This document shows positions 1,951-17,108 of a stretch of DNA of 64,000 bases, piece after piece. Positions within the stretch are counted from its first letter, which is position 1. The number at the start of each line of letters is the position of its first letter. The translations under genes were made by a program, and so were the position numbers. This DNA comes from Galbibacter marinus. Lineage in GTDB: Bacteria; Bacteroidota; Bacteroidia; Flavobacteriales; Flavobacteriaceae. The notes beneath the pieces are model-generated. The model ran no database searches. It was not told the DNA's origin and saw nothing but the letters and a program-made list of their open reading frames with translations. Location of the stretch: the NCBI RefSeq assembly GCF_000300875.1, contig NZ_AMSG01000012.1, positions 1-64,000 on the forward strand, written 5' to 3'.

Positions 1951-2056
1951 CGGAATGACTGACCGCTTTGCCCCGGAATGGGCGTCCGCTTTAAAACGGA
2001 ATGGGTGACCGCCTTCTAGCGGAATGGGTGTCCGTTTTCACCGGATTGTGCACAAT
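1951..2056 (-). repeat. Terminal repeat ladder of the IS21-family element
   Basis: The motif CGGAATG with a following TGnCCG recurs at 1951, 1974, 1997 and 2020, exactly 23 bp apart. A degenerate copy (CGGATTG) follows at 2042. Such ladders of transposase-binding repeats are characteristic of IS21-family ends. The outer end is probably at the TGTGCACA-like sequence near 2048-2054. The DNA from there to 2316 has no gene that I can support. Confidence 0.65.
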
Positions 2057-2316
2057 GATTTTTGAACGTTGGTAAAAATACTAGTTTTGGTAATGGAGCG
2101 TCTGTCCGATAGGCAGGTGCGGAATGGACATAACGAGTCGTGTTGGGAACTAGAAGCTCTTATATTTGGGTGAATGTAGTTTTTTGCTGAATGAAAATTT
2201 CATACCAATAGGCGAAAAATTGCTTTTTGACTTCTTTACCCACAAACAAGATATCGTTATAAAATTTTTTTCTATTTCTAATAGGGTTTTTAGAACTGGT
2301 TTAATTAAAATTTATG

Positions 2317-3414
2317 TTAAACAAATGCCTCTAATAATTTAGAAATTTCTAATAATCGGATTTGATATTCGGATTCGGCACTTAAATATTTATTGTTGTA
2401 ATAATTGATATGACTTGCATAATCATTAGAATCTTTAATGAGCTTTTCTGTTTGTCTTAAAAATTCTTGAGAACTCGTAAGTAATTTGTTGAATTCTGGG
2501 AGAAGAATGTGATCGCTATTATACCTTTGCATAATTCCTTCGAATAATGGCCCAACAATGTCCATTCTGAATTCCATCAATCCAGTTGAAATTTCTTCTG
2601 GGTCAACACCATCCTCTAATTTTTTTTTCCTTTCATCTGTTATTACAATTGTTCTTTCTTTGAAGTCATTAACAATTATAAAGTATGGATTTTCAAGCAA
2701 TAAAGAATGATGCGCTGTGTGGGCTGTAAGAAGACCATTCCTAACATTGGAAACTTCATCTATTAAAGCATCAAGGGTGATGGCTATTTCAGAACTGTGC
2801 TTATATTTCTTATTGAGATGTATTTGATGCTTATCTGTTACTTCCTTTGTTGATTTATCATAGAAATCTGCAATTTTATATAAGTCTACATAAGCTTTCT
2901 TCCAATCACTCCCAGGTTTGAACTCTCTAAATGCTTTATAAATATTTTGTTTGTCTACATCTAAAATTAATTTAGGAAAGGTATTAGGATAGAAAGACAT
3001 TCTATTCATCTCTGTTGGATGTTTAATTTCTTCATTTGAGTAATCAGTAGCTTTTTTTGATTGATTGATATTGCTTTTATATAACTTATCAATATAGACT
3101 TGTATAAAACCCAAGCTATCTTTTAATTCCTGTATTCTTGAAGCTTCTTTTTCTTCAATTTCTAATGTTTTTTGTCTACGCTGATAAATTAAGTCAAGTA
3201 TTACAAATAATATTGCGATAAAAGATAATATAGACCCCAATAAACCACCATATGCAGATATAATATTATCTCTTTTAGAGAAATCAAAATTTAAGAATTC
3301 CCAATTTTGAGTTTCATTTGCAGCATCAAATGATAATATTATTAAAAAGGTAAAAATTATGAATATGAATCCAAGTGTTAGACCTAATACCCATCTGTAT
3401 AATTTTCTACTCAT
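2317..3414 (-). CDS. Two-helix membrane protein, third gene of a putative defence operon
   Basis: I do not recognise the family of this 365-residue protein. Two hydrophobic segments are clear: about 9-30 (LGLTLGFIFIIFTFLIILSF) and about 53-74 (AYGGLLGSILSFIAILFVIL). The loop between them is short and polar, and the remaining 290 residues are charged and mostly helical, with a coiled-coil stretch after the second helix. Residues 75-365 would sit in the cytoplasm if the loop is periplasmic. It is the last gene after the STAND NTPase, 72 bp downstream on the same strand, so it is probably co-transcribed. The layout (two N-terminal helices plus a helical domain) resembles putative AbiC-type phage-abortive-infection membrane proteins, but I see no motif that proves it. 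A membrane effector or anchor for the operon is an inference. Confidence 0.7.
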   Translation of the reverse strand: MSRKLYRWVLGLTLGFIFIIFTFLIILSFDAANETQNWEFLNFDFSKRDNIISAYGGLLGSILSFIAILFVILDLIYQRRQKTLEIEEKEASRIQELKDSLGFIQVYIDKLYKSNINQSKKATDYSNEEIKHPTEMNRMSFYPNTFPKLILDVDKQNIYKAFREFKPGSDWKKAYVDLYKIADFYDKSTKEVTDKHQIHLNKKYKHSSEIAITLDALIDEVSNVRNGLLTAHTAHHSLLLENPYFIIVNDFKERTIVITDERKKKLEDGVDPEEISTGLMEFRMDIVGPLFEGIMQRYNSDHILLPEFNKLLTSSQEFLRQTEKLIKDSNDYASHINYYNNKYLSAESEYQIRLLEISKLLEAFV

Positions 3415-3486
3415 AATAAATAAACTTTATATTAATTTGACTGTTTTGAGAGCTTCTTATTTAAATTATCAAAAATCAATATGCAT

Positions 3487-6400
3487 TTAGTACGAATCAA
3501 CATCCTTAATGATTTGATAAGCCGACGAATCTCTATAGTCTTCATTTTGAAGCATATCATCAAAAACATCCATAGCACCTTCTAATATTTCATTCGCTTT
3601 ATTATATTCTCTCATTGCGTTATATGAATTGACAATTACTTGCAAGGGTTCATTTTTAAGCATTCTTTGTGTAATATCTGGTGAATAATGATTTTTATAA
3701 CTACTCGCAAGGACAATACAATCTTCAGGATGATTATTCGAGGACTTCAATAGAAGCAAATAGAATGGATGCTCTCTATATTTTCCAACATTTGAATGAA
3801 CATATTTATATAAAAAATCTTTAAGTTCAGAAAACAAATGAGGCTTTATGTGAAAAAATGCTTGATTATAAATTTCTCCTACTTCTTTGTCTTCGTTATC
3901 AAAAAATCTTTGGACTAGTGTTAATGCCTCTTCAATTTTTATTTCATGTTCAATGAATTCAAATGCAGTCCTTACAACAGTATTGGGTTTGTTGTATACT
4001 AAAAATTCTTCTATTAAAGATTCTGCACCCTCATAACTTCTACAATAAGCGATTGTAATTAATTTACCAATTTCCGTACTAGATTCTTCTACTTTAATTG
4101 CATTTTCAAAAAATGAAATTAATCTCTCAAAATTATGATTTATTAAATACTGTAATGGATTAATTGAAACTTTCAAAATATCTGGATGAAAATCATTAGA
4201 TAGTTCTAAAAACAATTCCATTACTCGGTCTTTGCCATGCTGTAAAAGAGATTGCATTTTGTATATGGCTGCAGCTCTGGTCGATGGTTTAGAATTATCG
4301 ACAAGAGTTTTTAGAGAATTGCAAATAAAATCAAAGTACTCTTCCGAAAAGGAGCAATCTATCAGAGCACTTGCAGCAGCACCACGCACTGAATTAATAC
4401 CAGCCGCTAAACTATCTTTTAAATCATCTCTTCCTTCATCACCTGTTAAAATGTTATGTTCAAGAAACCTTAAAATACTATCATCAATCCTTTTATGCTC
4501 TGAAAAATATCTTGTTATCCAGATAAGGTATAAAGTGTTCTCTTTTTCAAATATTCTGCTCTCTATAGTTTTACAGAATAATTTTATTAAAACTTCATTT
4601 GAAACCTTACCTTCTACCAAGCCTTCTAAAGCTTTTACGATGTAAGTGTTAGAAATCTCTGAATCTTCAATTATTTCGTCGATAAAATCCAAAAAATGAG
4701 AAGGGTTTTGAGATACTATATCTGCAAATCTTCTTCCATGTTCATATTCTGAAGGCTGGCTCCACCTATCAAAGTTCTTATTATTTGAATTATACTTTTT
4801 AAAACTCTTCCTCCAATTTTCTAAAGTGAATTTATCATATCTCGCGTTTAAAGGGTCTCTATTAACATGTACAACTATCCCTTCTGGCTCTTTGTTTTCT
4901 ATTTCTCCAAATTTACGCTTTAGTTCCTGATATTCCTTAAGCAGTTTTTTATCTACCGTTTTATTCGTTTTTACAACCGAGGTCAACAATTCAAATTTAC
5001 CTACACCATAAAACTTGTTCTTTTTTATTGTACCATCTTCGTTTTTAAAAACTCTTAATTCGTGGGGCTTATAGAATTTAGATATGACTTCTTCATTTAT
5101 ATTCTTCTTTTGTTTACCATCGAGCATAGAATAGGTCTTACCAAAAATCTCTAATATCATAAAGTTGAGATATTGATTAAGACTGTAAACTTCATTAAAC
5201 TTTTCAAGATTTGAAAAGAACAAATAGGATTGCTCTTTAAAATTTTTAGGGTACTTAAAAATAATACTAAATGCTATAATTATTTCTGTAATATAATTAG
5301 AGCCTAAATATTCACAAACTTCATTCTTTACGAATTCAGGATTGGTCTTATATTTATCCTCTAAATATTTCTGAAGTTTATCTATTTGGTCGTAATGCTT
5401 GTGGAGGTTTATGTTTTTTCTATCATACAAAAGATAAGCAGAATCTGATATAATTGTTCCTCTGCTCTCAAAACTGCGTTTGGTTATAATTTCTTTTATT
5501 ATAGTCTTTACAAGTTGATAAGCAATATCTGGGTGCTTTTCCCAAAAGTCATCATAGACCTGACTAGCGTGATTTCTTGAGTAAAAAAAGTTCGTTTCAT
5601 CATTGATATCCGTTCCTTTTTTAATGTCAAGATTAGTCAATATCTGATTCTTTACCCAATCAGGAAAATGTAGAATAGTGTTCTCAAGTACTCTATAATA
5701 CCAATACTCCTTTTTATATTCTGGCTTACGCTTAAGAACATTTTCAATTAATTCAATAGCAAGGGTGTTTCTAACTTCACTTACACGCCATAAGTAATCA
5801 ATTACCAACTCATCCTTGATAGTAGAGTCTTTTAAAGTTTTATAATATTCCAGCAAACTCTTTCCCTCATCAACATAAATAAAACGTCTAAAAACATCTA
5901 CGATTTGCCTTTGACGTTCCAATATATCCGTTTCTAATTCTTCTCTAAAAATTTCATTATTTATAAAAAAATATAACCAACCCTCACCTAGATAAAGAGA
6001 TAGAAAAGTATTCCTTAATTTTTGATTTGGTAAAATAACATTTTTTACTTTTTCCTTTTCTAAAGCCAAAGGCTGCTGTTGAAATGCTATTAGTTGAAGC
6101 ACTAATAATTTGATATGAAATCTTATCTCATCATTTATAATTAGTTCTTGAATATCTTTAAAATACTGTTCTTCATCAACACTTCTTCTGTAATTAAGAA
6201 TTTGTTTAATTTTTGAACGAATAAATAACCCTTGATGTCTTCTTAAAATATCATTGGTTAGGTTTTTGTTCTCGTTTGTAAAATTTCTTGCAAAAGAATA
6301 ATCAAAAAAAGACTGATGAAAAAATTCAATTTTATTAGTTGTATTGATAATACCTTCTGTCCTCAAATAATTTATTTCGTTTGAATAGCTATCCTCAAAT

Positions 6401-7974
6401 AATCTTTGGTCAACATTTATCTGTTGCACTTCGTACATTTTGGAGGCGAGTTCAAATACTAATTTTGAAACTTTGTTATAGTCAACTTTCAGTTTATTGA
6501 GACCTTTATTGTCAATAATTTTATGACTCCATAATACGGAATATAAATCTTGTAGACTTTTTATTTCATCTGTATGTAAGTCAGAAGTATATACTTTGAG
6601 AAATACATCTAAATGTAATGGTACTGCTAATAAGTTTATAAAAGCATCGGTAAACTGACTAATATTTTCAACACCAGATTGTTTCAATATATTCAGCAGT
6701 GTTTCTTTATTTAGTTGCTTTATAATAAAACTTCTCTTCCCTTTATAGTTTGAAATAATTGGGTCATAGTTCAAATCGTAAATTCGAGTTGAAATAATGA
6801 TTTTTATTTTTGGATGACCAATAAACTTTTGAATTAGACTATCATAAAACTTTAGTGGTTTTAGGTCTGAAGACAATGCTTGAGAAAGTGCATCAATTTG
6901 GTCAATTAATAAAACACCTTGTTCTTCTGTATCAATCAATCGATTTAAAAAGTCTTTAAAACCAACTTCCAAGTCAAACTCGTCTTCTAACTCTTTTGAA
7001 GAATTAAACGTTAGCCTATCTGCTTTTAGTGAGACCACAGGTATTTTCGCTTTTTCCAATTTATCATATAATTGTGAAATTACCACGGATTTGCCCATGC
7101 CGGCATCTCCCGCGACTACAGCAATATTTGTTTCGTTCTCTTTGAGTTTTTTCTCAATCCATTTATAAATTTCACTTACTTCAGACCTTACAATCTTTAA
7201 CTTTTCATTTTCACCAAAATGGGTTTTAATTCTTTTTATATCATAAGATATCTGTTTAGCCGTTGATTGAAGTTCTGAACTTGATAGTTTAAAATTTCTT
7301 TCCTTGCTTTTATCATTATCTTGATTACTCTCATTTGGTGATTCTGGCATTAATGATATCGTAGAAAAATATCTGTTAATGACATCAACATTTGACCTAA
7401 CAATATGGTCTAAATCAACTGCATTTAGAGAGGTTACATTTAATTGATTTAATAAGTCTTCAATTTCTGGCTGAACCTCTACAAGCTCTATATCTTGAAG
7501 ATTAGCTGAATTTAATTCTTTTTCAATCAGTGATTTAATATTTATATACTTCCATTGGTTCTTGAAATCAGCTAATAAAAGTTTAGTATCTTGAGTGAAA
7601 TCTTTTGAAGCGACAATGTAATAGGTAAAAGTTTGTATATCATTAATCAATGAAGAAGATGATGACGTGCCTTTTTTAATTTCAGAAAGGTGATGTAAAA
7701 GCAGCTTTATGATTTCTGACAGAATAATTTTTTGCCCTATGTTTTTCCCATACTTTTTACATTGGATGACCCCATTTATTTTACCACCTAAAAAAAGCAT
7801 TATGTCAGCTCCTTTTTCACCTACACCTGATGAAAGCACTACCTTATCATAAATGCCCTCGAAAAAGCCTTTTTTGAGCTGTTCATTAAAATAATGATAT
7901 ACCACCTCTTCAAACTCCCTATGAGTTAACGTGTTAAAATCTAGTGGTCTATTACTATAAACTTCTTGTCTCAT
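3487..7974 (-). CDS. Avs-like STAND/NACHT NTPase with N-terminal Mrr-like nuclease
   Basis: This 1495-residue protein has three parts. Residues 10-165 look like an Mrr-type PD-(D/E)XK nuclease: FEEVVYHYF, then GEKGADIML (Asp57), then GVIQCKKY (Gln71, Lys73). Residues about 245-560 are a P-loop STAND/NACHT-like NTPase, with Walker A GDAGMGKS (289-296), Walker B VLLIDQIDAL (354-363) and a sensor-like IIISTR (393-398). The rest is helical, with HEAT/ARM-like repeats (for example RGAAASALIDCS and STRAAAIYKMQSL near 1230-1290), suited to ligand sensing. This order matches Avs-type antiviral STAND proteins, most like the nuclease-bearing Avs4 kind. In that class phage protein binding triggers oligomerisation and DNA cutting. 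It begins 5 bp after the preceding nuclease-like gene. Similarity to a named Avs type cannot be proved without a search. Confidence 0.8.
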   Translation of the reverse strand: MRQEVYSNRPLDFNTLTHREFEEVVYHYFNEQLKKGFFEGIYDKVVLSSGVGEKGADIMLFLGGKINGVIQCKKYGKNIGQKIILSEIIKLLLHHLSEIKKGTSSSSSLINDIQTFTYYIVASKDFTQDTKLLLADFKNQWKYINIKSLIEKELNSANLQDIELVEVQPEIEDLLNQLNVTSLNAVDLDHIVRSNVDVINRYFSTISLMPESPNESNQDNDKSKERNFKLSSSELQSTAKQISYDIKRIKTHFGENEKLKIVRSEVSEIYKWIEKKLKENETNIAVVAGDAGMGKSVVISQLYDKLEKAKIPVVSLKADRLTFNSSKELEDEFDLEVGFKDFLNRLIDTEEQGVLLIDQIDALSQALSSDLKPLKFYDSLIQKFIGHPKIKIIISTRIYDLNYDPIISNYKGKRSFIIKQLNKETLLNILKQSGVENISQFTDAFINLLAVPLHLDVFLKVYTSDLHTDEIKSLQDLYSVLWSHKIIDNKGLNKLKVDYNKVSKLVFELASKMYEVQQINVDQRLFEDSYSNEINYLRTEGIINTTNKIEFFHQSFFDYSFARNFTNENKNLTNDILRRHQGLFIRSKIKQILNYRRSVDEEQYFKDIQELIINDEIRFHIKLLVLQLIAFQQQPLALEKEKVKNVILPNQKLRNTFLSLYLGEGWLYFFINNEIFREELETDILERQRQIVDVFRRFIYVDEGKSLLEYYKTLKDSTIKDELVIDYLWRVSEVRNTLAIELIENVLKRKPEYKKEYWYYRVLENTILHFPDWVKNQILTNLDIKKGTDINDETNFFYSRNHASQVYDDFWEKHPDIAYQLVKTIIKEIITKRSFESRGTIISDSAYLLYDRKNINLHKHYDQIDKLQKYLEDKYKTNPEFVKNEVCEYLGSNYITEIIIAFSIIFKYPKNFKEQSYLFFSNLEKFNEVYSLNQYLNFMILEIFGKTYSMLDGKQKKNINEEVISKFYKPHELRVFKNEDGTIKKNKFYGVGKFELLTSVVKTNKTVDKKLLKEYQELKRKFGEIENKEPEGIVVHVNRDPLNARYDKFTLENWRKSFKKYNSNNKNFDRWSQPSEYEHGRRFADIVSQNPSHFLDFIDEIIEDSEISNTYIVKALEGLVEGKVSNEVLIKLFCKTIESRIFEKENTLYLIWITRYFSEHKRIDDSILRFLEHNILTGDEGRDDLKDSLAAGINSVRGAAASALIDCSFSEEYFDFICNSLKTLVDNSKPSTRAAAIYKMQSLLQHGKDRVMELFLELSNDFHPDILKVSINPLQYLINHNFERLISFFENAIKVEESSTEIGKLITIAYCRSYEGAESLIEEFLVYNKPNTVVRTAFEFIEHEIKIEEALTLVQRFFDNEDKEVGEIYNQAFFHIKPHLFSELKDFLYKYVHSNVGKYREHPFYLLLLKSSNNHPEDCIVLASSYKNHYSPDITQRMLKNEPLQVIVNSYNAMREYNKANEILEGAMDVFDDMLQNEDYRDSSAYQIIKDVDSY

Positions 7975-7979
7975 TTGTT

Positions 7980-8654
7980 TTATTTATTAAAATCAATCAT
8001 ATCCTCATCAAGCCATCTATTAATTTCTGTTTTATCGATTTTAGTTTTATTACTTGAACATTCACCTGCTTTATGATAGAACAAGTTCTTGACTTCATTA
8101 TGGCATCCCATATTTATAAAGCGATGTTTTATTAAATCCTTTATCTCTATAAGCGGTATACATTTCATTTCAATTTTTTTTGCAAAAGCAATTAGCTGAA
8201 AGTCATCGTAACCTAAATATTTTTTTGCCATTTCCCACTGCTCAATAGCATATTCAGAGACTAAAACTGTATAAATATCATTAGGTAATTCCGCATTTCT
8301 TGCACGCATAAATACCTCTGAAAATAAATAACAATTATTTTCAGAAACTAAAACTATTGTGCATTCTGGGTCAGCCTCGTGTTGCTTTTTAAAATCTGAA
8401 AATACACCTTGAGAAAACAGATTGGATTGCTCCCAATGTAACTTCTTCGAAGGTGACCTAAACTTAACACTATGCATTATTTTACCTAATCTAGTTTTTA
8501 CTTTAATATCGTCTACAATTGTTTTATCAGACTTTAAAGCTTCAGGATATATAACATAATCTACTTCAAAAAAAGCATGAGATATTAGCAGTGCCAAATA
8601 CCAGTTCTGATATGCTATACCTGATTGTGTTGAGCTACCTCCAGAATATGGCAT
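7980..8654 (-). CDS. Small Cap4/DUF4297-like PD-(D/E)XK protein, first gene of the putative defence operon
   Basis: This protein has 224 residues. The N-terminus SGIAYQNWYLALLISHAF, then YPEALKSD, VDDIKVK and SVKFRSP, has the order G-x-x-YQ ... E ... D ... VxK seen in the DUF4297/Cap4 dsDNA-nuclease domain of CBASS effectors. Here it stands alone without the SAVED sensor domain. The C-terminal third is helical and without recognised motifs. The stop is 5 bp before the STAND gene, so the two are surely one transcript and probably one system. It could be a nuclease subunit activated by the STAND partner, or a catalytically weak regulator. The lysine motif SVKFR is slightly off the usual (V/E)xK form, so activity is uncertain. 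Confidence 0.65.
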   Translation of the reverse strand: MPYSGGSSTQSGIAYQNWYLALLISHAFFEVDYVIYPEALKSDKTIVDDIKVKTRLGKIMHSVKFRSPSKKLHWEQSNLFSQGVFSDFKKQHEADPECTIVLVSENNCYLFSEVFMRARNAELPNDIYTVLVSEYAIEQWEMAKKYLGYDDFQLIAFAKKIEMKCIPLIEIKDLIKHRFINMGCHNEVKNLFYHKAGECSSNKTKIDKTEINRWLDEDMIDFNK

Positions 8655-8725
8655 TACTGAAAATGGTTTTTATATGTGTTCAGATTAATCAATAATAAAA
8701 TATGACTTTATGTTAAACGAAAAAA

Positions 8726-9787
8726 TTATTTAATGTGGTCAAGCTGATAAATTAAATACCAATAAAAAAACGCTTCTGGATTGGTCTTTTTTAACTTATT
8801 CAAACGAGTTTCAAAGGGCTGTTCTATTATCCAGTCTTCCACCTCCATAGGATTTGCAAAGTGTGCCACTTTAGTGGTGCCAGTTTGTAACATGGTTGCT
8901 ATGTACGCTGCTTTTGCCGCTGGCACCATCGCGCGCTCAATATGAAAGTTTTCTGAAAAAATAAAATTTTTGATGTTTTGAATTCCTCTTTGAAGTTCAT
9001 TGTAATTTCCTGTGCCGCTTTGCCCTCTTGTAGCCATGAGCAGTGCTGTTTGAAACACATCGTTTAGCACATCCTCCTTATTTAATTCCTTTAACTCTCT
9101 ATAGGCTAACTCTGTTTGTGCAAATCGTGTAAACACCTCGGAAACTATTGTCATGTCCGTTACCATATCGAACAAATTACCAACATCGAATAACTGCTTT
9201 ATAATCTCCACTTCTTTTTCTCTTCCATAAGGCACTCCTGTTGTGTTGGGTGCAAAAGCTGTTAACTTATCGCCCAATATCGCTTCGGGAACAGGCACTG
9301 TTACCGTTGCATTCTTCCCTTCTGATTTTATAAACGGCGATTTTATTTCAATGTCACTTGTGTGCTTTCCGTAGTGGCTTTCTTCATAAAGTACATCCAA
9401 CAAAATATATTCTTGTTCTGCTCTGGCATTTGTAATCGGTGTGTAATAGAATTTATAATGTTCTTTTTCTATATTGGATTTTGATTTCCTTTCGTCAATT
9501 TTATATTCTATGAAATCTGAATTTTTTATAACCGCATCCAACATTGTTTTCATGTCTTTGGGTTTTTTCGAAATTATAATATCAATATCTATCGAAAATC
9601 GTTTCGGTTCTTTCAGTAAGAGCATCAACGCAGTACCTCCTTTAAAAATAAATTCTAACCCACTATTTTGAAGATGCTCCAATAAAGACAATGCACGGAT
9701 TACCTTTTCAATGAGAATAGGGTCAGATTTATGTTGTTTAGCAACATCTGTTATCCATTTTTCTTTAAGTGAATCGTCGTGAGTCAT
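8726..9787 (-). CDS. abiEii: AbiEii/AbiGii-type nucleotidyltransferase toxin
   Basis: This 353-residue protein belongs to the DUF1814/AbiEii family, a DNA polymerase beta-like fold. The nucleotidyltransferase motifs are FKGGTALM (Lys49, Gly50-Gly51, Thr52) and RFSIDIDI (Asp67 and Asp69, the metal ligands). A later PEAILGDKLTAF lysine motif is also typical. Characterised relatives transfer nucleotides to tRNA or other targets and stop growth during phage infection. It follows the AbiEi-like gene with a 40-bp gap that contains one copy of the CAAAGATT..GGCA motif directly before its ATG. A complete active site suggests a working toxin. Confidence 0.88.
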   Translation of the reverse strand: MTHDDSLKEKWITDVAKQHKSDPILIEKVIRALSLLEHLQNSGLEFIFKGGTALMLLLKEPKRFSIDIDIIISKKPKDMKTMLDAVIKNSDFIEYKIDERKSKSNIEKEHYKFYYTPITNARAEQEYILLDVLYEESHYGKHTSDIEIKSPFIKSEGKNATVTVPVPEAILGDKLTAFAPNTTGVPYGREKEVEIIKQLFDVGNLFDMVTDMTIVSEVFTRFAQTELAYRELKELNKEDVLNDVFQTALLMATRGQSGTGNYNELQRGIQNIKNFIFSENFHIERAMVPAAKAAYIATMLQTGTTKVAHFANPMEVEDWIIEQPFETRLNKLKKTNPEAFFYWYLIYQLDHIK

Positions 9788-9791
9788 ATTT

Positions 9792-9808
9792 CAAAGATTT
9801 GGCAGTAA
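9792..9808. repeat. Single copy of the 17-nt motif CAAAGATTTGGCAGTAA before the toxin start
   Basis: This sequence is identical to the left arm of the palindrome at 11546 and close to the arms of the palindrome at 10592. On the minus strand it reads ..CTTTG AAAT ATG, so it touches the toxin start codon, as the 10592 copy lies just before the antitoxin ATG. Likely an AbiEi binding half-site. Confidence 0.5.
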
Positions 9809-9827
9809 AAAGGCATTAATCCCATAT

Positions 9828-10574
9828 CTATACTTCGTTATTTATAAAATCATTTATTTCGTCACGCTTATTTCTTCTACTTGCATAACGTAACATTTTA
9901 GTGTTATTCACATTGTATTTTTCAAATACTGCTTGGTATATCCTTTTTAATTCTGCTCCCTGTTGTGCTGCGAAAATTATTGGGTCACAATAAATATCTA
10001 CCAGTAATTTCTCTATGGTTTGGGTGACTACTTTATTTACTTTTTGAGTAGGAGCTTCTGTTGTTAATCGTGTAATGATAATTGGTTCAGAAGCATTCAT
10101 AACGTAATTATTAATTATGTCTTCTGACGGGTCTAAAAATACTTCTTTTCCTTGTTCTTTTAATGCGTAAAAAACTGATTCCATTACATCCTTTTCTACT
10201 TCCACTATGGTATAAAATCGAAATGGTTGATGTAACATAAACTCATTTAACCATTTTGTTGACCATATACAGATATCAATAAATGGAAATTGATTGTTAA
10301 TTTTACCTGATAGGTATTTCAATGATTTATTAATTTCAGGAATATATTCTTTCCCTTCATTTTCTGATAAAGAGTATAATCCTCTGCTTACCCTGTGAAG
10401 TATGCCCTTGTTTACCAAATCGTAAATTCGCCAATCTACGGTAGCACGTTTAACGTCTTTGTCAAATTGTTGATAGTAGGCAATTAAATCGCTTACTTTG
10501 AAATTTTCTTTAATTGAAAATTCCTTAATAAAATCTTCTATATGTAGCGTTTCAGAAGTGATAGTTACTAAATT
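9828..10574 (-). CDS. AbiEi-like antitoxin (DUF6577-like), start codon disrupted
   Basis: The frame is open from 10574. Its first third reads as a winged-helix domain (IEDFIKEFSIKENFKVSDLI ... VDWRIYDLVNKGILHRVSRG), and an AbiEi C-terminal-like domain follows (FRFYTIVEVEKDVMESVFYAL). Such antitoxins repress their own operon and neutralise AbiEii. No ATG, GTG or TTG lies at the expected beginning. The first usable codon, a TTG at 10418, falls inside the winged helix. An ATG does sit at 10585 in the right place after the operator-like palindrome, but it is out of frame and stops after five codons (ATG ATT TTT AAA ATT TAG). A one-base change in the T5/A4 run would separate it from the body. The gene is either frameshifted, wrongly sequenced, or starts at a non-standard codon. 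Confidence 0.7.
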   Translation of the reverse strand, partial: NLVTITSETLHIEDFIKEFSIKENFKVSDLIAYYQQFDKDVKRATVDWRIYDLVNKGILHRVSRGLYSLSENEGKEYIPEINKSLKYLSGKINNQFPFIDICIWSTKWLNEFMLHQPFRFYTIVEVEKDVMESVFYALKEQGKEVFLDPSEDIINNYVMNASEPIIITRLTTEAPTQKVNKVVTQTIEKLLVDIYCDPIIFAAQQGAELKRIYQAVFEKYNVNNTKMLRYASRRNKRDEINDFINNEV

Positions 10575-10591
10575 TTAAAAATCATACTTTT

Positions 10592-10631
10592 CAAAGATTC
10601 GGCAATATAATCAATTATTGCCGAATCTTTG
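10592..10631. promoter_or_regulatory. Perfect 16-bp inverted repeat upstream of the AbiEi-like gene, likely operator
   Basis: The arms CAAAGATTCGGCAATA (10592-10607) and its exact complement (10616-10631) flank an 8-base loop. The palindrome ends 7 bp before the ATG at 10585. Its right arm supplies AATCTTTG, one base off the -7 consensus TAnnTTTG. Binding here would block the promoter. AbiEi proteins are known to autoregulate through inverted repeats. It could also fold as an RNA hairpin, but no U-tract follows on the minus strand. Confidence 0.55.
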
Positions 10632-10754
10632 TATTGATTAACTCAAAATATTGTAGTGTTTTATAAATCTTTCATAATTATACCCTTTAAAGGTTTAAGG
10701 TAATATAAAATATCCGTTTTATATCTTATTAGGTATAGCCATTATAATATCCTT

Positions 10755-10973
10755 CTATGTAGATTTATCCTTTATATTTCGGTAGATTTCAAGGAATTTA
10801 TCCTTACCTATTAAAGCACCAATTGTAATGGATAGTGGTATTGACATTGGTTCGATAATTTTCTCAAAAAAGCCTCCTATAGATTCAACTTTTTCATTTG
10901 GCATTATCCAAAACAAAACCACCAGTACCAGCAAAAACATCAAAAGGTTCGTAAAATTCGTCGTTCGTTTCAT
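10755..10973 (-). CDS. Small membrane protein of unknown function
   Basis: The likely start is the ATG at 10973 (72 residues). A longer frame opens at 11033, but its first 20 residues are basic and without hydrophobic pattern. One strong transmembrane helix is present (LLMFLLVLVVLFWIMP), followed by a second weakly hydrophobic stretch (SIPLSITIGALIG). It has no recognised domain. It lies between the mobilization gene and the toxin-antitoxin pair on the same strand. Confidence 0.45.
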   Translation of the reverse strand: MKRTTNFTNLLMFLLVLVVLFWIMPNEKVESIGGFFEKIIEPMSIPLSITIGALIGKDKFLEIYRNIKDKST

Positions 10974-11033
10974 GATTGTATTTTTAAATTGTTTTCTATT
11001 TTTTTCACTGCAAAGGATTCCAACTCTTCGCAA

Positions 11034-11728
11034 GAACGCATTTTTTGACCGTATCGTTTAAGACATGATTTTTCAATCTATGCCTTTTCATTCAATCTTA
11101 AAAGGACACCAATTTTTCCTTTATTATCAAGCAATGTATTCACTGCGTTTTTCTTAAAATAGGACAGTAAAATAGTGTTACTTAAAACAAAGTAAAAGCA
11201 ATTATTTTTAAAAAGGTCCTTTAGGTGGTAATCGAAGATTTTGTAAATGTATAACGAATCAACACACCATGAAAAACGGTCACAAAAGAACATTACGAAG
11301 ATATCTTTAATTAAAAATTTTATGACAAGATTATATTTCCGCGGACAGGTACGAACCATCAAGTTTTCTCCGAGCGTTGACAAATCTGTTTCCAAAGGTG
11401 GCGTTTTAAAAAGGCGAAGATTTAAAGTTGCTGGTTTTGAACGTTGGGCAATCTTTGGCTTTTTAAAATGATAGCCTAAATGGCGATTGAATGTCACGTA
11501 CTGACATGATATTCTTTGAAGCTCGAACTTAATAATAAACAATTTCAAAGATTTGGCAGTAAATGACAATTACTGCCAAATCTTTGCTACATATAGAACT
11601 ATTACGAATTCTAATTCGTAACCACATTTCGTATCAACATAAATAAGCGAGCGCAGCGCTGCAAGCCCCAACATCTGCCAAACAAACCTATAAAATGTTT
11701 TTGGGGTGTTATCATTAATTTTACCATT
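11034..11728. other. Island stretch without a confident gene
   Basis: Reading frames exist on both strands (minus 11078-11569, plus 11247-11471), but neither has a convincing start, domain or hydrophobic pattern. The plus-strand frame ends in a basic segment (GGVLKRRRFKVAGFERW). The block 11320-11470 may be a conserved untranslated or decayed piece of the element. The stretch holds the palindrome at 11546-11586 and a GC-rich AGCGCAGCGCT palindrome at 11650-11660 in otherwise AT-rich DNA. Confidence 0.4.
11546..11586. repeat. Second palindrome of the CAAAGATT..GGCA family
   Basis: Two perfect 17-bp arms (CAAAGATTTGGCAGTAA and its complement, 11570-11586) flank a 7-base loop. The left arm is identical to the single copy at 9792. 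It lies about 140 bp past the mobilization gene stop and before no intact minus-strand gene. It could be the operator of a lost gene or a terminator-like hairpin. Confidence 0.5.
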
Positions 11729-12064
11729 CTATCCTTTATCTATAAATTTTCTTTCTATAAATCTCGGCTTTGTAGGCTTTGGTTCAACAAACAATGATTC
11801 CAACATTTTTCTTGTTGGTATCAAATCACGTTTTTCAATCTCTCGCAGAATTGACACAATCGCATCCAATCTCTTATTGATTAAAATAGTCAAACTATGT
11901 ACTCTATTTTCAAAAGGAACGAATGGATCGATTTGGTTCTTCTCGAAAAAGTCCAACATTGCTTCCATCGTTTCGGTATAATTTTCGTTGTGATTCGAGG
12001 CAAAATTCTTAAACCTTTCAACGGTTTCATCATGAAAATTAATTCTTGAAAAATTCTTGCTCAT
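11729..12064 (-). CDS. BfmA/BtgA-family mobilization protein
   Basis: This 111-residue protein starts SKNFSRINFHDETVERFKNF, the hallmark of the BfmA/BtgA family from Bacteroides mobilizable elements. It has a ribbon-helix-helix-like N-terminus (about 4-50) that would bind the origin of transfer, and then a helical tail. Known members act as accessory proteins of the relaxosome. No relaxase gene is seen in the window, so the element would depend on a relaxase outside it, or is decayed. GC-rich hairpins sharing GCGCAGCG lie on both sides of the gene. Confidence 0.75.
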   Translation of the reverse strand: MSKNFSRINFHDETVERFKNFASNHNENYTETMEAMLDFFEKNQIDPFVPFENRVHSLTILINKRLDAIVSILREIEKRDLIPTRKMLESLFVEPKPTKPRFIERKFIDKG

Positions 12065-12221
12065 GGTACTGAATTTTAAAAATTAGGATAATGGGTTCTA
12101 CTATTTATAAGGGTTCACGATGCTTTTATTAAATTTTATTGCAAAATAAATTTTAGTTATCTCATTAAAATTTTATATAATATATTGAATATCAAATATT
12201 TATACAGAAAAGAGAATCATT

Positions 12222-12243
12222 ATAACATCGCGCAGCGTGTTAT
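12222..12243. other. GC-core hairpin, candidate transfer-origin or protein-binding site
   Basis: ATAACA and TGTTAT enclose CGC-GCA-GCG with one bulged T, giving a 9-bp stem. The octamer GCGCAGCG also occurs in the palindrome at 11650-11660 on the other side of the mobilization gene. The surrounding 12065-12370 stretch is otherwise very AT-rich and shows no gene. Confidence 0.35.
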
Positions 12244-12370
12244 CCTCTTGCTATTCCCAACTTTTTAAAAATATCCAGTTTATTACATTCAATTCAATCA
12301 AAGAACTGACTTTAAAATAGTCACTAATAAATCGGGAATACTCTAAATAGTTGCCACAATTATATTCGGA

Positions 12371-13726
12371 TTATTCGTTAAGTATTTCATTCAATTTCTG
12401 GATAAGCTGTTCATTTGTTAAATGAGAATACCTGTTCTTTTCGGCTTCTACAATTCTTTCGCGAAGAAAATTTAGCTCATTTTCCTCTTCAAATTTTCTT
12501 GCTTTTTTGTTGAGTCTTTTCTGTACAGCATCCATATCTGACTTTATCTTATGATCCATAACACGAGCATAAATTTGAGTTGTTGTGATTTTTGAATGCC
12601 CTAAAATTTTCGAAACAGTCTCAATAGGCATTCCATTACTCAATGCGATGGTTGTGGCAAAAGTGTGACGCGCCATATGAAAGGTTAGGTTCTTTTCTAT
12701 TCCTACTTCTGTGGCAATTTCTTTAAGGTAAAGATTTGCTTTCTCATTGGTTATTGAAGGTAGGAGCGTTCCAGAAATTTGAGTGACTGGGTGTATTTCA
12801 TATTTACTCAAAATATATTCTGCTGGAAATAATAATGGAATTTTAATTTTAGTATTTGTCTTTTGCCTTATGGTGGTTATCCATTTATTGCCTTCATCAT
12901 CGCCAATCCAAACGTTTTTCTTTGTCAAGTTTTTAATATCGACAAATGCAATTCCCGTGTAACAACTAAAAACAAACAAATCACGAACACGATCCAAACG
13001 GTCTATAGCAAAATGATGGTTTGCCAGTTTTGAAAGTTCGCTGTCAGACAAAAACTCTCTATCTACTTTATCGAATGAAGATTTCCATCTACGGAAAGGG
13101 TCATCTTTTATCCATTCAAGGTTGTAAGCAAGCGTTACTATTTTCCGTAAACGTTGGATATGCTTTGTGACGGTATTGTGACTCATTGCCTTTGGATGAC
13201 CTTTTGGATAGTACGCATTGAGGAAATTCTCAAAATCACATAAGAATTTATAATTCAAGTCTGAAAGGAACATATCATCAATTCGTTTTTTCTTTAAAAA
13301 TCGATTGACATAAACTATGGTAACACCAAAATTTCTAATCGACCCAATTGCATGGGTATTCTCAATTTTTTTTGAATGATAAGTGATGAGTTCCTGAAGC
13401 GTATGACTATTTAAGCTTTCATTTAAAAAGAGATTTTTAATTGCTTTGCTCGTTACTTCTTCGCCATTGTCTCGAAGCTCTTGATAACATCTAAAAAGTT
13501 TGGACTTAGATAAATCCAAATAACGATTGAATTCTTTGGCCTTTTGTGAGCTACCACGAAATTTTTTGTTTTTCGTATCCCACAAATCAATTTCTAACTT
13601 TCTTTTGAGACTAATGCTCAATCGTTTTTGATCTACTATAACTCTGGCATAGATGAAACCTTCTCCTTTCGTTGCTTTCTTTTTGTCCATCCAAAACTGA
13701 ATGGAAAATGTTTTTGATGTACGCAT
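12371..13726 (-). CDS. Tyrosine site-specific integrase of the island (Bacteroidota type)
   Basis: The protein has 451 residues. It has an arm-binding N-terminal domain of the Arm-DNA-bind type (about 5-95: FSIQFWMDKKKATKGEGFIYARV), a SAM-like core-binding domain (about 110-215) and a catalytic domain (about 225-410). Box II is complete: HMARHTFAT, LGHSKITTTQIYARV with the nucleophilic Tyr. The first catalytic Arg (box I) is replaced: CYTGIAFVDI stands where TGLRxSEL is usual. The same loss is known in IntDOT of CTnDOT. The gene starts about 220 bp from the 3' end of tRNA-Arg and points away from it, as expected for an element inserted there. Confidence 0.9.
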   Translation of the reverse strand: MRTSKTFSIQFWMDKKKATKGEGFIYARVIVDQKRLSISLKRKLEIDLWDTKNKKFRGSSQKAKEFNRYLDLSKSKLFRCYQELRDNGEEVTSKAIKNLFLNESLNSHTLQELITYHSKKIENTHAIGSIRNFGVTIVYVNRFLKKKRIDDMFLSDLNYKFLCDFENFLNAYYPKGHPKAMSHNTVTKHIQRLRKIVTLAYNLEWIKDDPFRRWKSSFDKVDREFLSDSELSKLANHHFAIDRLDRVRDLFVFSCYTGIAFVDIKNLTKKNVWIGDDEGNKWITTIRQKTNTKIKIPLLFPAEYILSKYEIHPVTQISGTLLPSITNEKANLYLKEIATEVGIEKNLTFHMARHTFATTIALSNGMPIETVSKILGHSKITTTQIYARVMDHKIKSDMDAVQKRLNKKARKFEEENELNFLRERIVEAEKNRYSHLTNEQLIQKLNEILNE

Positions 13727-13801
13727 AACTTTGGTTTTAAATTAAACTTGATTTGTTACGAAAGTCAAAACAAGACATAATCAACCTAAAGTTGAATTCC
13801 T

Positions 13802-13827
13802 TAAAAGGTAGCTAAAGCTACCTTTTA
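13802..13827. repeat. Inverted repeat between integrase and tRNA-Arg, possible integrase binding site
   Basis: Two 12-bp arms (TAAAAGGTAGCT and its complement) flank two bases. A further TAGCTACC occurs at 13846-13853. These lie in the attachment region between the integrase start and the tRNA, where integrase or excisionase sites are expected. A terminator role is also possible. Confidence 0.4.
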
Positions 13828-13890
13828 GTACTTTGAGTTACCTGATAGCTACCATATAACATCAAATAAAATGAATCCCTTAAAATCACG

Positions 13891-13922
13891 AAACCACGCA
13901 AATCCTATGATTTGCGTGGTTT
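13891..13922. terminator. Strong hairpin 26 bp past the tRNA-Arg gene
   Basis: Perfect 14-bp arms (AAACCACGCAAATC and its complement) flank a CTAT loop. It lies just downstream of the tRNA 3' end and probably ends the tRNA transcript. The T-rich tract is better on the plus strand, so it may work in both directions. Confidence 0.6.
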
Positions 13923-13947
13923 TGATACTTTTTGATAAAGCTTTTAG

Positions 13948-14021
13948 TGACCTCGGCAGGATTCAAACCTGCAACCTTCTGAGCCGTAATCAGATGCGCT
14001 ATTCAGTTGCGCCACGAGGCC
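13948..14021 (-). tRNA. tRNA-Arg (anticodon ACG)
   Basis: The 74-nt cloverleaf has acceptor pairs GGCCTCG/CGAGGTC, a TTCGAATC-type T loop (written TTTGAATCC) and anticodon loop TTACGGC. CCA is not encoded. It is the probable insertion target of the island on its 3' side. Confidence 0.92.
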
Positions 14022-14355
14022 TTTATGTTCGCAATTAAGACATTACCTAAATGCGGGTGCAAATATAATATTTTTTATGATATATGTACCAATCTTTAAT
14101 TAAAAAAAATGGAATTATAGTATGTACCACCTATCACCATTGTCAAACTTTCTGTATATCAGCACATTCAAAGCTAAGGCATCACGATTAAGAAGTCTGT
14201 TAGTGATGAGCTGAATTTACTACATTAAACTAGAAACCCATTATGCTTTTGGTGAAACATCTCAAGACTAAGCGATCCTGAAAATCATAGATCCCCTTTG
14301 GTATATTTTTATGACATACTGCGTATATTTGGGATACATCTAATATTACTGTCTT
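14022..14355. promoter_or_regulatory. Intergenic region with the sulfur-cluster promoter
   Basis: No gene is visible in these 334 bases. A TATATTTG box at 14324-14331 fits the Bacteroidota -7 consensus TAnnTTTG, and TTTG at 14297-14300 may be the -33 box with a 23-base spacer. Transcription would start about 18-20 bases before the ATG at 14356. Confidence 0.5.
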
Positions 14356-14913
14356 ATGGAACTAATACTTCAACCATGGCCATGGTACGTTTCTGGTCCA
14401 CTATTAGCCCTTGTTATGTACCTACTTGTTTATTTTGGTAAAACTTTTGGGGTTTCCTCCAATTTGCGAACACTATGTTCTATTGCAGGAGCAGGAAAAT
14501 ACACGGACTTCTTTGGTTTTGACTGGAAGTCACAACTTTGGAATTTAATGGTAGTAAGCGGCGCTATTTTAGGAGGTTATATCGCCTATTTCTACCTAAG
14601 TGATCATTCCCTGATTCAATTAAGCAACAACACGGTTGTTGCCCTTCAAGAATTTGGTTTTGACAACATCGGGGAAACCCTAGTTCCCATGGAGATATTC
14701 TCCATGGAGGCAGTATTTAGCCTTAAGGGACTTCTAATACTGATCCCTGGAGGTTTTTTAGTTGGTTTTGGAACCCGCTATGCTGGAGGTTGTACTTCGG
14801 GACACGCCATTACAGGTTTGAGCAACCTCCAACTCCCTTCACTCTTGGCTGTAGTTGGCTTTTTTATCGGAGGACTCATTATGACACATTTAATCTTACC
14901 TTTTTTATTCTAA
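14356..14913 (+). CDS. YeeE/YedE-type membrane protein (sulfur compound transport), first half
   Basis: This 185-residue integral membrane protein has four to five hydrophobic segments, starting with WYVSGPLLALVMYLLVYFG. It carries the family motif GFGTRYAGGCTSGHAITG, whose Cys takes part in thiosulfate passage in YeeE proteins. The next gene is the matching second half, so the pair probably forms one transporter (PmpAB style) for thiosulfate or another reduced sulfur species. The following MBL/rhodanese gene fits with handling persulfide sulfur. Confidence 0.85.
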   Translation: MELILQPWPWYVSGPLLALVMYLLVYFGKTFGVSSNLRTLCSIAGAGKYTDFFGFDWKSQLWNLMVVSGAILGGYIAYFYLSDHSLIQLSNNTVVALQEFGFDNIGETLVPMEIFSMEAVFSLKGLLILIPGGFLVGFGTRYAGGCTSGHAITGLSNLQLPSLLAVVGFFIGGLIMTHLILPFLF

Positions 14914-14923
14914 AACAACAACC

Positions 14924-15337
14924 ATGAAATATATCAAATACATACTAACAGGAATGCTACTAGGAATTGTCTTAGTAAAATCAGAGGCCATATCCTGGTA
15001 TCGTATCTTCGAAATGTTCCGTTTTGAATCATTTCACATGTATGGAATTATTGGTAGCGCTGTTCTAACAGGTATTCTTTTAATCCAGTTATCGAAAAAG
15101 TATGGTGTAAAGACTTACAATGGCGCTCCAATAACTATAAAGCCGAAAGAAAGGTCCAAGTATCGCTATCTTATTGGAGGTAGTATTTTTGGGTTAGGCT
15201 GGGCCTTAACAGGCGCTTGTCCAGGTCCAATTTTCACTCTTATCGGTACCGGACTATTCTCCATGATTATTGTACTAATATCAGCTGTGGTTGGCACGTT
15301 TGTCTATGGGCTTTTAAAAAACAAGCTCCCTCATTAA
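14924..15337 (+). CDS. YeeE/YedE-type membrane protein (DUF6691), second half
   Basis: This 137-residue membrane protein has about four helices and the motif GWALTGACPGPIFTLIG, which carries the conserved Cys of this half. It begins 10 bp after the first half and is surely co-transcribed with it. The two-gene split is common in Bacteroidota and Proteobacteria. Confidence 0.85.
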   Translation: MKYIKYILTGMLLGIVLVKSEAISWYRIFEMFRFESFHMYGIIGSAVLTGILLIQLSKKYGVKTYNGAPITIKPKERSKYRYLIGGSIFGLGWALTGACPGPIFTLIGTGLFSMIIVLISAVVGTFVYGLLKNKLPH

Positions 15338-15408
15338 TAAGAGTCTTTATAATAGATCAATATACTATATTGTTAACTTTTAGAACATCGAAAAGTCACA
15401 TGTTTTTG

Positions 15409-15416
15409 TACCTTTG
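15409..15416 (+). promoter_or_regulatory. Possible -7 box for the MBL-rhodanese gene
   Basis: TACCTTTG fits TAnnTTTG and lies 50 bp before the ATG at 15467. No good -33 TTTG is found at the usual distance, so it is weak support. Confidence 0.3.
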
Positions 15417-15466
15417 AGCTGCGTCCTTAAAAAACGTATTAAGGAGCAATGCAAAAAGTGTAAAAA

Positions 15467-16864
15467 ATGAAAGTTGAACAAATTTATACGGGCTGTCTAG
15501 CTCAAGGCGCCTATTACATAGAATCAAAAGGAGAAGTTGCCATAATTGATCCGCTGAGAGAAACAGAACCCTATATCACAAGGGCAAAAAAAACAGGAGC
15601 CAAAATTAAATATATTTTTGAAACCCACTTCCATGCTGACTTTGTCTCTGGACATATTGATCTAGCTAAAAAGACAGGAGCAACTATAGTCTACGGACCC
15701 AATGCAGCCACTAGTTACGACATATACCAAGCTAAAGACCAAGAAGAATTTACTCTAGGAGATGTAACAATCAAAGTAATACACACCCCTGGTCATACTT
15801 TAGAATCATGTTGTTATCTTCTAAAAGATGAACATGATAAAAACTATGCCCTTTTTACTGGGGACACCCTCTTTATAGGGGATGTTGGCCGGCCTGACCT
15901 TGCTATTAAACAAGATTTAACCAAGGAAGATTTAGCTGGGATGCTCTATGATTCGCTGCGAGATAAAATCATGCCTTTGGAAGATGATTTACTCATATAT
16001 CCAGCTCATGGCGCAGGGTCTGCTTGTGGTAAGAACATGAGCAAGGATACGGTAGATACTTTGGGAAATCAGAAGAAGACCAATTATGCCCTTGATAAGA
16101 ATACAACAAAGCAGGGCTTCATCGAGAAACTTTTAGAAGGAATCCTACCCCCACCTCAATATTTCTCAAAAAACGCCTTACTCAATAAACAAGGTTATGC
16201 TTCTTTTGACCAGGTATTAGAAAAGGGAAGTATACCGTTAGATCCAGCGTCTTTTGAAGCCCTGGCAAACCAACACTCGGCTGTAGTTCTAGATGTTCGA
16301 TCTCCAGAAGAATATTTAAATCAACACGTTCCAAACTCCATTTTTATAGGTTTAAACGGATCTTTTGCTCCTTGGGTAGGCGCTTTGATTACAGATCTTA
16401 AACAACCCCTTTTGTTGGTGGTACCCCAGGGTAAAGCAGAAGAAACTGTTACCCGCTTATCAAGAGTTGGATATGACAACACCCTTGGTTATTTAGAAGG
16501 AGGATTAGAGGCATGGAAAATGGCTGGAAAAGAAACCCAGTCAATTGAATCTATCGATGCAGATACCTTTAAAGACAAATTCAAAACACAGGGCGATCAA
16601 ATAAGTATTCTAGATGTGAGAAAGCCAGATGAATTCAGCGCTCAACATTTACTTTCTGCGACGAATTTCCCATTGGACTTTATAAATGAGAATATGAGTG
16701 ATTTAGATAAACAAGCGCCCTATTATATTCACTGTGCTGGTGGGTATCGCTCCGCCATTGCAGCTTCCATACTAAGAGCTAGAGGCTTCTCCAAGCTAAC
16801 TGATATAAAAGGCGGATTTGGCGCTCTAAAACAAACTGAACTTCCAATTTCTAATGAACCTTGA
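15467..16864 (+). CDS. Metallo-beta-lactamase fold hydrolase with two rhodanese domains (persulfide dioxygenase-like)
   Basis: This protein has 465 residues. Residues 1-210 form an ETHE1/BlhA-like metallo-beta-lactamase domain with THFHAD (His54, His56, Asp58), HTPGHT and FTGDTLFIGDVGRPDL. Two rhodanese domains follow. The first (about 265-355, VVLDVRSPEEY) lacks the active-site Cys, so it is structural. The second (about 370-460) has IHCAGGYRS with Cys423. Proteins with this architecture oxidise persulfides with O2 and pass sulfur between thiols. Standing behind the YeeE pair, it likely processes imported or endogenous sulfide and thiosulfate sulfur in the cytoplasm. Confidence 0.88.
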   Translation: MKVEQIYTGCLAQGAYYIESKGEVAIIDPLRETEPYITRAKKTGAKIKYIFETHFHADFVSGHIDLAKKTGATIVYGPNAATSYDIYQAKDQEEFTLGDVTIKVIHTPGHTLESCCYLLKDEHDKNYALFTGDTLFIGDVGRPDLAIKQDLTKEDLAGMLYDSLRDKIMPLEDDLLIYPAHGAGSACGKNMSKDTVDTLGNQKKTNYALDKNTTKQGFIEKLLEGILPPPQYFSKNALLNKQGYASFDQVLEKGSIPLDPASFEALANQHSAVVLDVRSPEEYLNQHVPNSIFIGLNGSFAPWVGALITDLKQPLLLVVPQGKAEETVTRLSRVGYDNTLGYLEGGLEAWKMAGKETQSIESIDADTFKDKFKTQGDQISILDVRKPDEFSAQHLLSATNFPLDFINENMSDLDKQAPYYIHCAGGYRSAIAASILRARGFSKLTDIKGGFGALKQTELPISNEP

Positions 16865-16895
16865 GCTGATTAAAATACTGTATAAAAAAATGCCG

Positions 16896-17108
16896 ATGAA
16901 GATAAAAATAAATATGAGTAAAAAGGATAAGCTAATCCGAGTAATTATAGCCTTTGTAATTGCGATGTTATTTTTTTTTCAAATTATAAAAGGAATCCTA
17001 GGGGTAATACTTATGCTACTAGCTATAGCAATTTTGCTTACCTGTTTTTTTAGGGTCTGCCCATTGTATAAAGTATGCGGTATTTCCACTAATCAATCCA
17101 AAACCTAA
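16896..17108 (+). CDS. DUF2892 (YgaP-like) small membrane protein
   Basis: I chose the ATG at 16896, which gives about 70 residues. A longer frame from 16854 overlaps the upstream stop. Two hydrophobic helices (LIRVIIAFVIAMLFFF and GILGVILMLLAIAILLTCFF) are followed by RVCPLYKVCGIST, the usual end of the YgaP membrane domain. In YgaP this domain is joined to a rhodanese. Here it follows a rhodanese gene, so it may anchor sulfur transfer at the membrane. Confidence 0.75.
   Translation: MKIKINMSKKDKLIRVIIAFVIAMLFFFQIIKGILGVILMLLAIAILLTCFFRVCPLYKVCGISTNQSKT

Follow-up and report, generated by a model that had tools for sequence, protein, structure and literature searches.

We propose that two adjacent genes of Galbibacter marinus (Flavobacteriaceae) form an anti-phage system in which an Avs4-like sensor with an Mrr-type nuclease in cis is paired with a separately encoded, Cap4-like effector in trans, a reading to which we give a probability of about 0.6. 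Both genes lie on the minus strand of the window analysed here, the whole stretch of 64,000 nucleotides at positions 1 to 64,000 of contig NZ_AMSG01000012.1. Gene 1 (7980-8654) encodes a 224-residue Cap4-like protein, the proposed in-trans effector nuclease, as judged from its open reading frame (ORF), the ranking of its fold matches, a profile comparison with hhalign and its pairing with gene 2. Gene 2 (3487-7974) encodes a 1495-residue, Avs4-like ATPase of the STAND (signal transduction ATPases with numerous domains) class with an N-terminal Mrr domain and a long C-terminal region, as judged from its ORF, Pfam, a fold search and its relatives. In the mechanism that we envisage, the C-terminal part of the STAND protein would bind a conserved phage protein, an ATP-driven assembly of the STAND protein would follow, and this assembly would switch on two putative DNA nucleases, its own Mrr domain (in cis) and the separate Cap4-like protein (in trans). 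Phage and host DNA would then be cut and infection would stop at the cost of the cell. The part of PMC12931631 that we draw on states that Avs1-4, once they have sensed a phage protein such as terminase or portal, kill by cleaving the genomes of both host and phage, and describes Avs proteins as sensor, NTPase and effector in one chain.

The original prediction, made from the window sequence without database searches, had proposed a cooperating set of three genes, in which a gene for a membrane protein follows the small gene and the STAND gene. The layout on which it was based is confirmed, with minus-strand ORFs of 224 (7980-8654), 1495 (3487-7974) and 365 residues (2317-3414) that are separated by 5 and 72 bp and are transcribed in the order small, STAND and membrane gene. 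The cooperation holds up for the first two genes, which form a conserved pair, and not for the membrane gene. A single scan with short peptide patterns of a species-genome collection (84,980 species by its description), using as query an alignment of the window small protein with a partial relative from genome G251, matched 48 stretches, three of which encode relatives of the small protein. These are in Polaribacter porphyrae, an Aquimarina metagenome-assembled genome (MAG; an assembly of 2.5 Mb, possibly incomplete) and a Fluviicola MAG, and all three proteins are full-length and 52-55% identical to the window copy. Directly downstream of each lies a full-length Mrr-STAND gene, the product of which is 75% (Polaribacter), 57% (Aquimarina) or 42% (Fluviicola) identical to that of the window; the two genes overlap by 4 bp in Polaribacter and in Fluviicola and lie 3 bp apart in Aquimarina. 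The genes flanking the pair differ among the three loci, and the small gene is followed by the Mrr-STAND gene in all four full-length copies found, that of the window included. The unit thus appears from these comparisons to consist of two genes rather than three. A weak match within a 389-residue protein of another kind was left out of these counts. No relatives of the small protein were present in the viral contigs, plasmids and phage records searched, nor did the plasmid collection give a match at the DNA level, and a literature search of titles and abstract beginnings returned no report of a Cap4-like and Mrr-STAND pair, which is weak evidence of novelty.

The small protein is predicted to be Cap4-like on four lines of evidence from sequence comparison and modelling, the strongest being the hhalign match to STAND proteins in which such a domain is fused at the N-terminus. 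The earlier DUF4297/Cap4-like label survives in part, as it draws on one relative, the fold ranking and the profile comparison, while the window protein alone has no convincing match in Pfam, PADLOC or NCBIfam. None of the four copies reaches the 26.2-bit cut-off of Cap4_nuclease (PF14130); the Aquimarina copy scores 19.0 bits (E 0.0017), below that cut-off, the other three copies give no match, and the three relatives match no PADLOC model. With a structure model built from four sequences (pLDDT 60.8), the first 12 of 311 PDB matches found by Foldseek are all Cap4 (probability 0.93-0.99, E 2.4e-3 to 1.1e-2), and a profile of the small protein run against PDB sequences gave nothing significant and no Cap4. 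By hhalign the small family matches the N-terminal 220 residues of other Avs-like STAND proteins (the fused N-termini of loci L024, L025, L027, L028 and L029) with a probability of 94.8% and a score of 56.9 over 208 of the 225 small-family columns, or 91.2% and 48.9 when the partial G251 row is removed. In 300 column shuffles that served as control the score was at most 32.6 and the probability at most 33.9, and the other controls all stayed under a score of 20: the alignment read in reverse (13.0), the N-termini with Mrr (0.2%) and six blocks taken from the STAND family of the window. A plain HMMER profile of the small family did not detect the fused-domain match at E 0.01. The fused domain has no Cap4 match in Pfam, and it is called Cap4-like by way of the small protein and of its letters D...QxK.

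By these alignments a module that other proteins carry in fusion with a STAND NTPase stands on its own in the small protein, and the order of the small and STAND genes is the order that a fusion would need. Homology between the small protein and a fused STAND module is classical fusion evidence, which argues that the small and STAND proteins work together. The putative active-site stretch of gene 1, D49-x12-S62-x-K64 (8463-8510, minus strand), is taken from the alignments; D49 and K64 are invariant in all five aligned sequences and are spaced as in D40-Q53-K55 of DUF4297-HerA (PMC11291478). A Pfam search of the 224-residue protein gave no SAVED domain at E <= 1, which sets it apart from the Cap4 effector of the CBASS (cyclic-oligonucleotide-based anti-phage signalling system) type, and no CD-NTase (cGAS/DncV-like nucleotidyltransferase) was found among the neighbours scanned with Pfam, no model search aimed at CD-NTases having been made.

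Avs4 is a single-gene system with an Mrr-type N-terminal nuclease that has a catalytic D...QxK motif, and gene 2 has such an N-terminal domain. The earlier assignment of a nuclease domain and a P-loop STAND module to the middle gene is borne out, at scores near or below the Pfam cut-offs. The Mrr_cat domain (PF04471; residues 14-84, 7723-7935, minus strand) scores 21.0 bits in the window copy, exactly at the cut-off of 21, 22.8 bits in the Polaribacter copy and 16.8 bits, below the cut-off, in the Fluviicola copy, and residues D57, Q71 and K73 are invariant in the alignments. The P-loop NTPase core (residues 282-374, 6853-7131, minus strand) is placed by a match to AAA_22, which at 3.3e-5 lies below its cut-off, as do the AAA and nSTAND matches below theirs, and by invariant core residues (G292, G294, K295, D358 and D361 in eight sequences); Walker A (GDAGMGKS) and Walker B (LLIDQIDALS) motifs were recognised by eye. 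The C-terminal region (about residues 680-1495, 3490-5937, minus strand) is conserved in the relatives and is presumed, by analogy with the Avs architecture, to be the sensor of a phage protein. The analogy with Avs that the original prediction had drawn was also recovered by the fold search. With a model of residues 1-690 built from five sequences (pLDDT 67.7), the best PDB match is Avs4 bound to a phage portal (8dgf, E 8.9e-14), and of 1707 matches 8dgf ranks first and Avs3 (8dgc) fourth, a result of ranking and not of superposition because the TM-scores (template modelling scores) are low.

Other searches with gene 2 matched proteins without an Avs name. In PADLOC the NTPase region matches PDC-M54A (1.6e-15, residues 256-362) and a second model (3e-14, residues 257-618), and PDC-S01 matches this region as well. 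Against the PDB, a profile of the four copies matches 9n00, an 'AAA family ATPase' of 1523 residues (E 8.7e-19), and the profile similarity of gene 2 to 9n00, 9n01 and 9yix covers the NTPase region and, weakly, the C-terminus. In the PADLOC search, a check proposed earlier, the STAND protein matches PDC-M54A and PDC-S01 and no model named Avs, and the small and membrane proteins match no model.

Relatives of the STAND protein were found in 7 of 394 other genomes of the phylum and 2 of 258 other genomes of the family. Sixteen plasmid records carry partial matches. Among viral contigs the window STAND sequence alone found no relative, one STAND relative (locus L061) was among the matches listed when STAND profiles were used, and phage records gave no STAND match. 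A search of a viral structure library returned nothing at E <= 0.001. Twelve more distant loci were read (L004, L006, L023-L029, L058, L059 and L061), two of which, L023 and L061, align through the Mrr part; at L058 the Mrr_cat_2 match is weak (0.0031), and inspection by eye put L059 in the same class.

Several findings weigh against the proposed system, and they concern both the identity of its parts and their pairing. On the structural side both models are modest (pLDDT 60.8 from four sequences for the small protein, 67.7 from five for the STAND protein), no Cap4 fold match of the small protein reaches E <= 0.001, and the TM-scores are up to 0.30 to Cap4, 0.29 to Avs4 (8dgf) and 0.22 to Avs3 (8dgc), such that the structure prediction called for by the original prediction favoured Cap4 by rank and left the match itself short of that threshold. 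The PADLOC library holds Avs models, and none named Avs is matched by gene 2 at E <= 1 or by two of its relatives at E <= 5; likewise, when the PDB was searched with gene 2 by sequence or by profile, 8dgf was not among the matches at E <= 1. The N-terminal Mrr part of the Fluviicola copy matches LmuA of Lamassu in PADLOC (1.7e-8). On the side of the pairing, the external copies number three and all come from one scan with short peptide patterns, all 12 of the distant STAND loci were read without a separate small gene, the partial relative of the small protein in G251 follows an AbiEi-AbiEii pair (Pfam) by 4 bp, and the 18 kb read at that locus hold no STAND gene. Finally, all four full-length small proteins have S or N in place of the central Q of the DUF4297 motif, and for this reason gene 1 may encode an inactive nuclease.

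This replacement is the starting point of the main rival, in which the small protein has little catalytic activity and acts as a regulator or adaptor, restraining the Mrr-STAND protein or aiding its assembly through its Cap4-like and helical parts. The helical C-terminal half of the small protein is conserved (with pLDDT of 56-87 in blocks), and the strict pairing would also fit a control subunit, but D49, K64 and their spacing are kept and the homologous domain stands in the effector position of related STAND proteins; we consider a regulator unlikely, though deserving of serious thought. The absence of the small gene from all 12 distant loci indicates that the STAND family does not generally need it, and it would suit a view of gene 2 as an ordinary single-gene Avs-type defence with an unrelated hitch-hiker in front. 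This we hold to be quite improbable, because the two genes overlap or nearly overlap in four loci with different flanks, over a range of 42-75% STAND identity, and because other STAND proteins contain a homologue of the small protein as a fused domain.

The AbiE genes raise a further rival. As had been noted earlier, an AbiE pair adjoins the genes: AbiEii and AbiEi lie upstream of the small gene on the same strand (Pfam, PADLOC), the AbiEii nucleotidyltransferase toxin (PF08843; 8726-9787, minus strand) ending 71 bp upstream of it. The small gene might then belong with AbiE, in an AbiEi-AbiEii-small arrangement, the STAND gene being a single-gene Avs, as the 4-bp spacing in G251 and the count of small-gene loci adjoining AbiE (2 of 5, the window and G251) would allow. 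The G251 protein is 38% identical and similar over the first ~134 residues only, and it looks cut short; because the three intact external copies all adjoin a STAND gene, we read it as either a truncated remnant or put to a different use. Those three close relatives have no AbiE match beside the pair (AbiEi was sought within the loci only), and a whole-genome search for the window AbiEii found none in the three genomes, the window's own genome being matched as a positive control. We regard an AbiE-based unit as very improbable and rejected AbiE as part of the unit; on this distribution AbiE is an independent neighbour on the same integrative island. The AbiEi gene (9828-10418, minus strand; Pfam, PADLOC) is listed with a TTG start, upstream of which, in the stretch up to ~10600, its frame is open for at least ~45 residues without ATG, GTG or TTG. 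The match to one PADLOC model of AbiEi begins at position 46; the gene either uses a rare start codon or is truncated.

Known systems share some features with the proposed pair of an Mrr-STAND sensor and a Cap4-like effector. Avs4 (AVAST type IV; 8dgf), the top fold match, is likewise about 1500 residues long, with an Mrr-type nuclease ahead of the STAND NTPase, whereas in the window and 3/3 external loci the STAND gene is accompanied by a second gene that resembles an effector, and gene 2 is matched neither by Avs sequence models nor by 8dgf in sequence or profile searches. The Avs-like STAND proteins with a fused Cap4-like domain (the five aligned above) carry that domain ahead of the NTPase, in the same order as here, where a gene of its own encodes it and Mrr takes its place in the STAND protein. 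In PDC-M54, a PADLOC candidate system, the likeness is confined to the match of PDC-M54A to the NTPase and the following part. The accounts of Hachiman HamA-HamB that we draw on also describe an effector nuclease restrained by a large NTP-driven partner, which there is a DNA-damage-sensing helicase. The part of PMC11291478 that we use mentions that Avs3 has a Cap4 domain and presents DUF4297-HerA as a two-gene system in which a separate, Cap4-type (DUF4297) nuclease depends on an ATPase partner; that partner is of the HerA type and not a STAND sensor, and its nuclease has D-Q-K where the small proteins have D-S/N-K.

Trees of the four sequences conflict between the two genes. For the small gene the window groups with Fluviicola (approximately unbiased test, p-AU 0.998; both alternatives 0.003) and for the STAND gene with Polaribacter (p-AU 0.991; alternatives 0.004 and 0.013), and despite this conflict the gene order is the same in all. 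DNA sites that favour window plus Fluviicola are in excess in approximately the first 490 bp of the small gene and not after (27 versus 11 for the other grouping in bins 40-488), a signal that is not clear in a simple plot of DNA identity. The small gene may therefore have been exchanged, wholly or in part, without a change of position, which is a lead only, as the sequences number four and evolve fast. In a search for a conserved promoter upstream of the small gene, a local alignment shows little conservation beyond the start region, and windows of the operon alignment are 57-67% identical among the window, L051 and the Aquimarina locus (L052).

Three of the distant STAND loci have neighbours of their own. 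The IMG/VR contig L061 encodes, adjoining its Mrr-STAND relative, a 1298-residue protein (13066-16962) with an nSTAND_NTPase5 match (5.7e-8) and an N-terminus that is Cap4-like by eye. On the Segatella copri plasmid NZ_CP085933.1 (L004, 3272-9993), a 1319-residue STAND relative without an N-terminal nuclease is flanked by a DUF2971 gene and a gene for a 401-residue protein with a TIR_2 match (0.00022), and the TIR-like protein ends in a stretch (FQHGDKSIYVENNSGTININ) similar to the one with which the STAND protein begins (FQFGEKPIYIERNEGNVYVGDY). This looks like an amyloid-type signalling motif pair, which would make the TIR-like protein another in-trans effector. At L023 (12863-17166, genome G343) genes for an SMC-like ATPase and for proteins of 230 and 425 residues stand in a row next to the Mrr-STAND gene, presumably in the manner of the ABC three-component systems.

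The membrane gene (2317-3414, minus strand) encodes a 365-residue protein with two N-terminal membrane helices, as predicted earlier and supported by hydropathy, and its placement outside the pair comes from co-occurrence. Its relatives were found in 4 of 395 phylum genomes and, by profile, 13 of 259 family genomes, the window's own included in both. The family search gave 13 matches in 12 other genomes, and the seven that are strong and full-length were read with their neighbours; six weak matches (E 2.8e-7 to 6.6e-4; L038-L043) and a weak phylum match below the profile threshold (L014, genome G321) were left out. In all, ten loci were inspected (L005, L012, L013 and L044-L050). Among them L045 and L046 represent almost one and the same element, the contig of L044 measures 7.5 kb, and L012 ends 1 kb past the gene. 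The check for co-occurrence that had been proposed separates the genes: the small gene accompanies the STAND gene in 3/3 loci, and the relatives of the membrane gene stand away from the STAND gene in 10/10, which for this gene is the outcome that the original prediction had named as a refutation. None of the ten loci holds a small or STAND gene, the seven strong family genomes do not overlap with the genomes that have a STAND or small match (259 searched for each), and the membrane gene was found neither in the fetched pair loci by profile scan nor elsewhere in the three pair genomes, in a search that matched the window's own genome as positive control.

A three-gene system, with the STAND protein as sensor, the small protein as nuclease and the membrane protein as final effector, could still be argued from the shared strand and the 72-bp gap, which make a co-transcript possible, and from the defence neighbours of 3/10 membrane loci, where restriction genes adjoin (Pfam): type I restriction-modification and GmrSD at L047, a type I restriction subunit and McrBC at L049, and an MmeI-type methylase-like protein with a TIR protein at L048. 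At the other seven loci no defence neighbour was shown. Since the membrane gene does not co-occur with the other two we rejected the three-gene unit, which we rank as the least probable of the alternatives, and by its distribution the membrane gene is an independent neighbour on the island. As a known Pfam family it was likewise rejected, as the 13 families at E <= 1 (four proteins scanned) include none that is convincing and none of the abortive-infection kind; it has no PDB relative (best E 0.19), no PADLOC match and no relative in the viral contigs searched, and one plasmid record matches it. At L045 (7335-7883), L046 (7485-8033) and L049 (10135-10560) the membrane gene is preceded by a gene for a protein of 141-182 residues with hydrophobic stretches (SKSDDxFEKYIT...), as judged by eye; the two genes may form a membrane module, for which no family match was convincing.

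The region of the AbiE genes, the pair and the membrane gene looks like an insertion, an integrative island at a tRNA-Arg gene, in agreement with the mobile island of the original prediction. A gene for a tyrosine integrase (tyrosine recombinase; 12371-13726, minus strand; Pfam) abuts tRNA-Arg(acg) (13947-14021, minus strand; ARAGORN), the likely integration site, a BfmA/BtgA-type mobilisation protein is encoded at 11729-12064, and the G+C content is 0.29-0.33 within 2001-14000 and 0.35-0.43 in the rest of the window. The congener G423 has the right flank and tRNA-Arg in synteny with the window, and the 11 kb beyond the tRNA gene have no match to any island protein; it is because this genome keeps the flank and tRNA without the island that the region looks inserted. 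In a second congener, G636, the flank and the tRNA are in different places, which makes it uninformative on insertion; it carries, about 1.2 kb from a tRNA-Arg copy, an AbiEii gene (Pfam) and a likely partner (L071, 7202-8925). The 3' end of the tRNA gene has no second copy as an attachment repeat in the window, which begins at the contig end, and for this reason the left end of the island is unseen. An insertion sequence element with an rve-type transposase (122-1894) lies at that contig end, left of the island.

The pairing and the conflicting trees raise the tentative picture, possible although we would not yet favour it, of a plug-in Avs in which an NLR-like (nucleotide-binding, leucine-rich repeat-like) sensor that already bears a nuclease recruits a second, separate Cap4-like nuclease, the plug-in gene being exchangeable between related sensors. 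The pairing also gives a rule for finding such partners, which are not named by the PADLOC models used. A natural split, with the effector module separate or fused according to lineage, would let the recruitment and switching of nucleases by Avs proteins be tested, and would let one ask whether phages find it harder to escape two nucleases of different types.

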